Source: Chitinophagaceae bacterium (GTDB lineage Bacteria; Bacteroidota; Bacteroidia; Chitinophagales; Chitinophagaceae). Taken from it: a stretch of 54,901 nt of DNA. This document shows positions 31,529 through 33,346 of this stretch, piece after piece. Position 1 is the first letter of the stretch; every line of letters begins with the position of its first letter. The notes under the pieces were generated by a model. That model saw only the letters and a list, made by a program, of their open reading frames with translations. It made no database searches and was not told where the DNA came from. The position numbers and the translations under genes are program-made. The DNA lies in NCBI GenBank assembly GCA_004322015.1, contig SCQT01000260.1, positions 1 through 54,901 on the forward strand, read 5' to 3'.

Positions 31529-31639
31529 CAGAAGGAAGGATTTATGGTAATACTTAAACCTTAAGAAATTAAAGGCCTTAGGCGTACTATAACAAAAATC
31601 CAGGGGCTATTCCATAAACGTTACGGGTCTCTCAGGCAC

Positions 31640-31880
31640 ATTTACATTAATCATTTCTACTTATCCACATTTGTTTATTTACATATAAACTAAGCATATA
31701 TATAAATTACTTCGTAATAGCATAGTATTTTTTAATAAACATTTATAAGTGAATTATTACTTATATATAACCTGCTAATTCACCCGTTATCCACATTATT
31801 TTAACTTCTATTCAATGCAAAGCCGGTAATTTTGCCCTGAATGCCCTCCTGTCATGCATCTTACCCTGTGGAAAAAATAA
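31640..31880. other. AT-rich region with DnaA boxes, candidate replication origin
   Basis: The gap between galM and mraZ holds two perfect DnaA boxes TTATCCACA in the same orientation (31661-31669 and 31787-31795), a degenerate reverse one (TGTGGAAAA, 31867-31875) and, between the first two, about 110 bp of nearly pure A/T. Short palindromes TATAAGT/ACTTATA and ATTAC/GTAAT lie in the AT stretch. This is the expected composition of a small bacterial oriC (unwinding element plus DnaA boxes), but dnaA and other origin markers are not present, so it could instead be a DnaA-controlled regulatory region. Confidence 0.35.
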
Positions 31881-31890
31881 GAAATAAATT

Positions 31891-31927
31891 TTTGGGTTAG
31901 AAGTGGGAAAAAGTGTTATTTTGTGTC
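31891..31927 (+). promoter_or_regulatory. mraZ promoter with overlapping MraZ-type operator
   Basis: TTTG at 31891-31894, 20 nt, then TTATTTTG (31915-31922, one mismatch to TAnnTTTG) form the promoter. Overlapping it are three GTG-led boxes with an exact 10-bp period (GTGGG 31903, GTGTT 31913, GTGTC 31923). This is the arrangement of MraZ operators (TGGGN boxes every 10 bp), where MraZ represses its own operon; only the first box carries the full GGG. Confidence 0.5.
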
Positions 31928-31959
31928 AAAATAATTATTTTTACAAGAAAATAGCACGG

Positions 31960-32463
31960 ATGACAGGTTTTCTGGGAGAATATGAGTCTACATTAGATGC
32001 CAAAGGGCGCTTTTTGTTCCCTGCGGCATTTCGTAAGCAACTACCTGAGGCAGAATCAGTTGCAGAGAATGCCTCTTTTGCCCAGGCATTCGTCATCAAC
32101 CGGGGTTTTGAGAAATGCCTGACCCTTTACCCCATCCAATCCTGGCAACCCATCTTTGAAAAAATCAGCAGCCTGAATGATTTCGATCCCCAAGTGCGCG
32201 CCTTCCGGCGTTACTTTTTGAACGGGGCCGTTACAGTTGAACCCGATAGTGCGGGCAGGTTACTGATACCTAAAAATTTATCGGAGTACGCCGGATTGAC
32301 CAAAGACTTGGTGCTGGCATCCGCCGTCAATAAGATTGAAATTTGGGATAAAGCTCAATATCAGCAGTTCTTTGAATCGTATTCGCCGGAATCATTCAGT
32401 GATCTGGCAAACCAGGTCATGGGAAACAATCCGGGGACGGGAACCGGGAATAAAAACGGATAA
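31960..32463 (+). CDS. mraZ: Transcriptional regulator MraZ
   Basis: A 167-aa DNA-binding protein with two SpoVT-AbrB-type domains, first gene of the dcw cluster and known as its autorepressor. Domain 1 begins GEYESTLDAKGRFLFPAAFR; domain 2 carries AVTVEPDSAGRLLIPKNLSEYAGL, both with the conserved D-x-KGR / D-x-AGR turn. The frame is open from a GTG at 31903, but that codon lies in the operator; ATG 31960 (MTGFLGEYES) is the family start. It ends 1 bp before rsmH. Confidence 0.94.
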   Translation: MTGFLGEYESTLDAKGRFLFPAAFRKQLPEAESVAENASFAQAFVINRGFEKCLTLYPIQSWQPIFEKISSLNDFDPQVRAFRRYFLNGAVTVEPDSAGRLLIPKNLSEYAGLTKDLVLASAVNKIEIWDKAQYQQFFESYSPESFSDLANQVMGNNPGTGTGNKNG

Positions 32464-32464
32464 G

Positions 32465-33346
32465 ATGCCGGACAAAACGCCCCGCAAGAGCTACCATGAA
32501 CCGGTGATGCTTCAGGAAGTGATCGAAGCGTTGCAGATTATTCCGGGCGGCATTTATGCAGATATGACTTTTGGCGGGGGCGGGCATTCGAAAGCTATCC
32601 TGTTGCAATTGAATAAGGAAGGGAAATTAATAGCTTTTGATCAGGATGAAGATGCATGGAAAAATGCGATAGACGATCCGAGATTTCTTCTTGTAAAAGA
32701 AAATTTCCGTCATCTGCAGAGGTTTTTGAAGTTATATCACATGATACCGGCAGAGGGAATCCTGGCAGACCTGGGAGTTTCATCACATCAGTTTGATACA
32801 GCCGGACGCGGATTTTCCATGCAACAGAATGCTTTGCTGGATATGAGGATGGACAGGAGACAAACGCTGACAGCTAAGGATATCTTAAGAAGCTATGATC
32901 CGGCGGCTTTGCAGGAGATCTTTGAACAATACGGCGAAGTTCCCAATGCACGCACATTGGCCTATCGAATCGTGGAAGCGCGTAAGACCTTTCCGATAGA
33001 AACGGTGGCTGAATTAACCGCTATTGCAGGGGGTGTCAGCAGAGGGAATCCGGCACGGTACCTGGCGCAGGTATTCCAGGCGTTACGCATCACGGTAAAT
33101 GATGAATTGAATGCATTGCGTGAAATGCTGGAACAATCAGTAAGTGTTTTAAAACCTGATGGCAGGCTGGTGATCATTACTTTTCATTCTTTAGAAGATC
33201 GCATTGTAAAAGAATTTATGAAAAATGAAAAACGGTTGAATATAGTATATAAAAAACCTTTAGTTCCGTCCTTTGAAGAAATAAAAAGGAATCCGAGAGC
33301 AAGAAGCGCTAAGTTGAGAGTGGCGAAGAAGGGGGCGGTGGAGTGA
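32465..33346 (+). CDS. rsmH: 16S rRNA (cytosine1402-N4)-methyltransferase
   Basis: A 293-aa SAM-dependent methyltransferase modifying C1402 in the ribosomal P site. Motifs: YHEPVMLQEV, YADMTFGGGGHSKAIL (SAM site, near 33-48), LADLGVSSHQFD and RGFSMQ, and the C-terminal RLVIITFHSLEDRIVKEF. The longer upstream frame (from 32336) overlaps mraZ and is rejected in favour of ATG 32465. Its stop codon lies inside an 8-bp tandem array. Confidence 0.96.
   Translation: MPDKTPRKSYHEPVMLQEVIEALQIIPGGIYADMTFGGGGHSKAILLQLNKEGKLIAFDQDEDAWKNAIDDPRFLLVKENFRHLQRFLKLYHMIPAEGILADLGVSSHQFDTAGRGFSMQQNALLDMRMDRRQTLTAKDILRSYDPAALQEIFEQYGEVPNARTLAYRIVEARKTFPIETVAELTAIAGGVSRGNPARYLAQVFQALRITVNDELNALREMLEQSVSVLKPDGRLVIITFHSLEDRIVKEFMKNEKRLNIVYKKPLVPSFEEIKRNPRARSAKLRVAKKGAVE

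Follow-up and report, generated by a model that had tools for sequence, protein, structure and literature searches.

The window, the whole stretch of 54,901 nucleotides analyzed here, is one contig of a Chitinophagaceae genome (G000) that spans 4.51 Mb in 300 contigs, where it is listed as C262. Its forward strand carries mraZ (31960-32463, ATG at 31960, NCBIfam TIGR00242), the first gene of the division and cell wall (dcw) cluster, followed by an open reading frame (32336-33346, also forward) with rsmH (mraW), the second. More dcw genes lie downstream, comprising an ftsL-like gene, PBP/ftsI, murE, mraY, murD, ftsW and murG; these were named by eye, and rsmH alone goes beyond such naming. The gap upstream of mraZ, 31529-31959, holds several sites that resemble the DnaA box, whose consensus is given as TTWTNCACA (PMC12371093). 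Two perfect copies of TTATCCACA occupy the forward strand at 31661-31669 and 31787-31795, 299 and 173 bp upstream of the mraZ start, and their start-to-start distance is 126 bp, exactly as an earlier note on this DNA had described. A degenerate DnaA-like unit, TAATTCACC, begins 11 bp before the second of them (31776-31784, forward). On the reverse strand, a one-mismatch inverted box, TTTTCCACA (TGTGGAAAA as read on the forward strand), is found at 31867-31875, at -93. It lies 36 bp upstream of a MraZ operator, GTGGGAAAAAGTGTTATTTTGTG, consisting of three GTG repeats with a 10-bp period (31903-31925, forward). The third, degenerate and inverted box of the earlier note therefore exists, albeit next to this operator and not between the perfect boxes.

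The earlier note had also placed an A/T-only stretch between the boxes. The interval in question (31670-31786) is in fact 79.5% A+T, and A+T content reaches its maximum for any 100 bp of the window at 31671-31770, with 85% (windows stepped by 10 bp); the sole pure A/T run of at least 15 bp around 31.4-32.0 kb is 16 bp long and lies outside the pair, at 31928-31943. AT-richness at this place is not a family feature among 114 Chitinophagaceae mraZ upstreams: the two genomes of the window's genus rank highest in A+T content at -290 to -180 (0.83 and 0.76), followed by 0.74, and the mean is 0.61. Likewise, the box at -299 recurs, among the loci examined, in one same-genus genome only (L004, and L033, which is probably the same genome), while the boxes at -173 and -93 sit at positions conserved in the family. 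The genome contains 111 exact TTATCCACA boxes, whereas the reversed control gives 37. At that density, some 0.17 same-orientation pairs no more than 126 bp apart would be expected in the whole genome, and the probability of at least two exact boxes in one given 431-bp gap is about 6e-5, a single-gap figure uncorrected for the number of gaps. Taken alone, the box pair is only mildly unusual, and its significance comes from conservation.

That conservation was read from a sample of mraZ loci. The first 110 combined the best 80 of 513 contig matches with the best 30 of 189 matching family genomes and are biased toward MraZ proteins similar to the query; to these were added another 20 members of the family, picked because their identity was lower or their genome a single contig. 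A locus that had 48 bp of upstream sequence was dropped, leaving 129 with at least 300 bp, and removal of 15 near-duplicates gave the 114. The family label of the sampled genomes was drawn from named loci among the mraZ matches. Judged by the mraZ locus, the nearest named relative among the best 80 of the 513 matches is a Chitinophagaceae MAG whose MraZ is 89% identical. A second mraZ homologue in the source genome, on a 3.5-kb contig (C280:2223-2642), has its own GTG operator, and TTWTCCACA was not found in the last 300 bp upstream of it; this copy is possibly contamination, the genome being rated 1.83% contaminated.

The autoregulatory operator of MraZ, three GTG repeats with a 10-bp period, is present upstream of mraZ in all 114 loci as well as in the window. 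Among the DnaA boxes of the family, the inverted one is conserved best: TGTGGAWAA occurs at -115 to -80 in 101 of the 114 upstreams (shuffle mean 0.2 loci), 37 of the 114 have it in the exact TGTGGATAA form, and its distance to the operator is 37 bp in 85 of the 101, so that a DnaA box holds a conserved position relative to elements of the promoter region. The strict form is absent from 13 loci, six of which belong to the 20 added genomes. Further upstream, an exact TTATCCACA is found at -260 to -120 in 40 of 114 loci, compared with none in 20 shuffles of -250 to -120.

The direct boxes belong to a larger pattern. On the forward strand upstream of the inverted box, WWTNCAC occurs 2.88 times per locus versus 0.38 in shuffled sequence (114 upstreams), and the spacings between occurrences pile up at 10/11, 21, 32 and 42 bp, which amounts to roughly one turn of the helix for each unit. 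Chains of at least three CAC triplets at 10/11-bp steps, defined with no base required beyond the triplets themselves, appear in 67 of 114 upstreams; in the same 114, neither the opposite strand nor the region from -500 to -318 has any. When the 223 chained units are aligned on CAC alone, the resulting logo is that of a DnaA box, TTAT[CT]CACA, or more fully T/C-T/A-A-T-N-C-A-C-A, with T in 92% at position 4 and A in 80% at position 9. The last array unit stands 27-103 bp from the inverted box, with peaks near 48, 59, 69-72, 79-81 and 90-92 bp, as expected if array and inverted box keep one helical lattice. Fewer than three phased units are present in 47 of the 114 upstreams, the window's included. 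The window copy consists of the operator, the inverted box and two phased units 11 bp apart, of which the one at 31787 is the last of the array and the one at 31776 appears to be a remnant of the family's phased array. It is thus best described as a reduced array with an apparently genus-specific addition, namely the 31661 box and an AT-rich stretch that is strongest in the two genomes of this genus.

An array of CAC triplets reads as GTG repeats on the other strand, and it might be asked whether the region is simply a second MraZ operator, with the inverted box as a further MraZ repeat. MraZ operators are themselves GTG repeats with a 10-bp period, the reverse complement of the array gives GTG at 10/11 bp, and in E. 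coli MraZ binds a site that overlaps a DnaA box at mioC (PMC4446571). The details of the units make this very unlikely. Under the same CAC alignment, T at position 4 is found in 3% of operator units as opposed to 92% of array units; position 5 accepts any base in the array and only A or C in the operator; and spacing alternates between 10 and 11 bp in the array, whereas it is exactly 10 bp in the operator. The two logos being distinct, the array was rejected as a set of MraZ units. The inverted box deserves more caution: since TGTGGAAAA partly resembles, and nearly matches, a MraZ repeat, it is weakened as sole evidence for DnaA, and it is the TGTGGATAA form together with the array that carries the argument.

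A different transcription factor with a DnaA-box-like site could also read the array. The identification rests on sequence, and many units deviate from TTATCCACA at positions 1-3. Two of the array variants, ATTCACA and ATCCACA, are nevertheless shared with the upstream regions of nadA in the family, which favors DnaA as the reader, and the conserved inverted box corresponds to the high-affinity consensus TTWTCCACA. Another factor is accordingly considered quite unlikely. The DnaA of the source genome itself is canonical and full-length (TIGR00362). Elsewhere in the genome, a second match to the DnaA C-terminal domain (57 bits) falls in a short frame of 162 aa at C132:4985-5191.

Within the family, the array is also largely specific to mraZ. 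When 195 family genomes were scanned for a strict pattern of three units spaced 10 and then 11 bp apart, 38 of them gave a total of 41 matches, against five for the reversed control. Out of 30 pattern loci fetched, 27 adjoin mraZ directly, and of the 11 other matches seven are upstream of mraZ by coordinates (that of G103 via its overlapping fetched match). This places 34 of the 41 matches upstream of mraZ, two of which overlap in one genome, and the seven located away from mraZ are about as many as in the reversed control. The remaining 157 of the 195 genomes have no match to this strict pattern, and among them are G000 and the same-genus G030. The alternative order, 11 then 10 bp, gave 38 matches in 37 of 298 genomes of the order (control 3), with G000 again unmatched; 24 of the 30 loci fetched lie beside mraZ, 23 of them in Chitinophagaceae and one, mirrored, in family f79. 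Outside Chitinophagaceae this order had 13 matches, one at mraZ, five not and seven unfetched, versus one control match, and genomes of other families may carry such arrays elsewhere than at mraZ. A pair pattern, two boxes with 95-125 bp between them, matched in seven of the 195 genomes, and the matches in G111 led to the nadA region.

Some individual loci from other families may be mentioned here. The f79 locus (L425, genome G507) combines a mirrored DnaA-like array with a diverged mraZ (37% identity) downstream of it, which suggests that the arrangement is older or has arisen repeatedly. Two loci of family f75 (L422 and L423, in G504 and G515) have phased DnaA-like arrays that are not at mraZ and that by eye apparently come just after a terminator-like hairpin.

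Within Chitinophagaceae, the gene on the far side of the array is variable, with 23 clusters in 75 loci and both strands represented. Because this neighbor differs between loci, the array goes with mraZ. Such an association bears on the question of whether the boxes serve DnaA itself, as a titration or DnaA-ATP switch site for which the proximity of mraZ is incidental. In E. coli, the datA and DARS loci alter the level of DnaA-ATP and have IHF/Fis sites. The mraZ upstream is likewise a multi-box DnaA cluster outside oriC, for which E. coli offers a precedent (PMC12371093). Against such a role stand the helical phasing of the array and the usual 37-bp register to the MraZ operator. The array furthermore stays at mraZ even though the distance between mraZ and nadA varies between roughly 8% and 41% of the chromosome length in 12 single-contig genomes, and the boxes are few. 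Titration or switching as the main role is therefore unlikely.

The earlier note had offered the region as a possible oriC. The mraZ upstream does hold a DnaA-box cluster, accompanied in the window by an AT-rich stretch, and its layout of an anchor plus weak sites is reminiscent of E. coli oriC. GC skew points elsewhere. It was read from separate 10-20-kb stretches, not entire chromosomes, of three single-contig relatives. In G022 (3.34 Mb), skew remains negative as far as 0.62-0.64 Mb, is positive between 0.64 and about 2.15 Mb and is negative thereafter, with mraZ at 0.041 Mb and nadA at 0.639 Mb. In G106 (6.31 Mb), where the amplitude is low (about 0.02), the sign changes from negative to positive between 5.566 and 5.567 Mb, with small exceptions of -0.004 at 6.28 Mb, next to mraZ, and +0.002 at 2.7 Mb; mraZ lies at 6.308 Mb and nadA at 5.566 Mb. 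In the noisier G116 (4.10 Mb), negative values predominate between 1.45 and 4.06 Mb and positive values beyond, the exceptions being +0.039 at 3.05 Mb, +0.030 at the mraZ stretch, -0.078 at 0 and -0.012 at 50 kb; here mraZ is at 3.631 Mb and nadA at 4.045 Mb. In each of the three, the skew switches near nadA, 0.4-0.74 Mb from mraZ, and the mraZ upstream does not coincide with the skew minimum.

The sequences upstream of nadA look like origins in other respects as well. DnaA-box clusters are present there in G022, G116 and G111, and mnmG is nearby in G116 and G111 (by eye). A second box cluster in G022, at about 671.8-672.2 kb, lies inside a gene and was set aside. A module in which three DnaA-trios come no more than 24 bp after a DnaA-like box, resembling the box-plus-trio unwinding system (PMC8287927), is found in 25 of 30 nadA upstreams versus one of 114 mraZ upstreams; if the three trios may lie at any place within 300 bp, the counts are 29 of 30 and two of 114. 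The strict module is absent from the nadA upstreams of G111, G125, G140, G019 and G000, and G000 alone also lacks the three trios. In G000, nadA is on contig C43, preceded by a 548-bp gap (upstream of 6186, L211) between a ppiD-like gene, named by eye, and nadA. This gap is 26% G+C, ends in TTCCACAAATTCACAGCC and TTAATAATATTAG, and has degenerate boxes and an imperfect trio-like end without strict trios; by eye it resembles the others and is a candidate oriC of the source genome. dnaA, whose position the earlier note had proposed to check, is on contig C242, and TTWTNCACA does not occur within its 3.2-kb locus.

Ribosomal RNA genes add a little to this picture. The 3' end of a 23S gene and a 5S gene are on the forward strand at 1-610 of the window, at the contig start and about 31 kb left of mraZ, and would be transcribed head-on to a fork leaving mraZ. 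The 16S genes, found in eight of 12 genomes, point away from nadA in 18 of 18 cases and away from mraZ in 15 of 18, a weak discriminator that fits nadA and mostly fits mraZ too. GC skew at the scale of the window is weak evidence and seems to follow the gene strand. Overall, there is sequence evidence, from skew, boxes and trios, that the oriC of the family is the region upstream of nadA, and by the same signs the mraZ upstream does not appear to be the origin in G022, G116 and G106. For the source genome the verdict rests on these relatives, since its assembly is fragmented and its own nadA upstream is without the strict trio module, a point that speaks for mraZ. Given also that the AT-rich stretch is not family-wide, an origin upstream of mraZ is extremely improbable.

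Outside Chitinophagaceae, the arrangement becomes looser. Of 90 genomes sampled across the class, 85 had mraZ, and 82 upstreams from other Bacteroidia families were examined. An operator with at least two repeats is present in 73 of the 82. TTWTCCACA is found at -130 to -60 in 11 of 82, from seven families (100 shuffles gave a mean of 0.48 and a maximum of 3), and in the control region at -700 to -300 in one of 82 (shuffle 0.91); exact TTATCCACA occurs at -130 to -60 in four of 82 (shuffle mean 0.05). When TGTGGAWAA and operator were searched as one combined pattern, 37 of 296 class genomes yielded 42 matches, against 18 for the reversed control; 17 of 30 fetched loci proved to be at mraZ, Chitinophagaceae accounting for five. 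The inverted box is hence near-universal in the sampled Chitinophagaceae and scattered across other families. A box near the operator in only 11 of these 82 upstreams counts against a DnaA role of the mraZ upstream, as do the reduced array of the window, the family genomes unmatched by the strict pattern, the upstreams with fewer than three phased units or lacking the strict inverted box, and the 12 of 13 matches to the 11-then-10 order outside the family that lie away from mraZ or were left unfetched.

On balance, the region upstream of mraZ is likely a DnaA-binding regulatory region of the mraZ/dcw promoter and not an origin. This agrees with the other suggestion of the earlier note, a DnaA-responsive site coupling division to replication, insofar as the sequence feature is concerned: boxes, phasing, usual operator spacing, conservation and concentration at mraZ are all directly observed, and the conserved pattern is phased and anchored to the operator. 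DnaA binding and regulation, with the role of ATP and the sign and timing of control, are what we infer from it. In the proposed mechanism, the strong inverted box that closely precedes the MraZ operator would be bound by DnaA, and the anchored protein would draw more DnaA onto the direct boxes, which are weaker, helically phased and usually about 48-92 bp further upstream. The short oligomer so formed on inverted box and array could then act beside or against MraZ and raise or lower dcw transcription as the level of active DnaA changes, with the result that the synthesis of division proteins would follow the replication cycle. Rather than the place where copying of the chromosome begins, the mraZ upstream would probably be a switch linking the expression of division genes to replication.

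A broader formulation is slightly more probable than not: in Chitinophagaceae, and more loosely in other Bacteroidia, an orisome-like platform for a DnaA oligomer may be positioned outside oriC and in helical register beside the MraZ operator, allowing the whole dcw operon to read active DnaA directly. If true, this would represent a built-in coupling of replication to division in a phylum for which none was found in the literature searched. That search likewise found no report of this arrangement of DnaA array and MraZ operator at mraZ. To our knowledge, replication-division coupling outside the model phyla is largely open. A phased array that occurs mainly at the head of dcw, and is kept there despite changing neighbors and chromosomal place, provides a precise and testable candidate for such a link.

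DnaA control of division genes is already known. For instance, DnaA activates the Caulobacter division and cell-cycle genes ftsZ, mipZ and gcrA and binds the Bacillus ftsL promoter (PMC8203912, PMC10532879); Bacillus sda is also listed as a DnaA-linked promoter, in a passage that names neither ftsL nor mraZ (PMC4447404). Those systems share with the present one DnaA boxes or binding at division or cell-cycle promoters, the boxes here being predicted. The differences are the location at the head of dcw (mraZ), the phylum, and the combination of a phased array with an inverted anchor usually 37 bp from the operator. DnaA boxes within dcw have a precedent in E. coli ftsQA, where they were found without control over ftsZ transcription (PMC8203912); they are intragenic, whereas the mraZ boxes are intergenic, phased and conserved. 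The timing of the E. coli mraZ-ftsZ operon has been described as well (PMC10081379).

In the origin of E. coli, DnaA is anchored at strong boxes and cooperatively occupies weak sites separated by 2 bp, some of which prefer DnaA-ATP (PMC6727663). The mraZ site has a similar combination of a strong box and an array of weak sites, but it is in a promoter region, lies off the GC-skew switch in three relatives, is without a box-plus-trio module in 113 of 114 cases and has a spacing that alternates between 10 and 11 bp. On the side of the operator, MraZ represses its own cluster, and its site in Mollicutes consists of AAAGTG[T/G] repeats (PMC8475190). The direct GTG repeats upstream of mraZ are the same, and what is added in Chitinophagaceae are DnaA boxes upstream of the operator. 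A further parallel is the E. coli mioC promoter, which also joins DnaA and MraZ sites at one promoter (PMC4446571). There, the gene is beside oriC and the two sites overlap; here, the gene is mraZ itself, located off the origin as judged from relatives, and the sites are separate.
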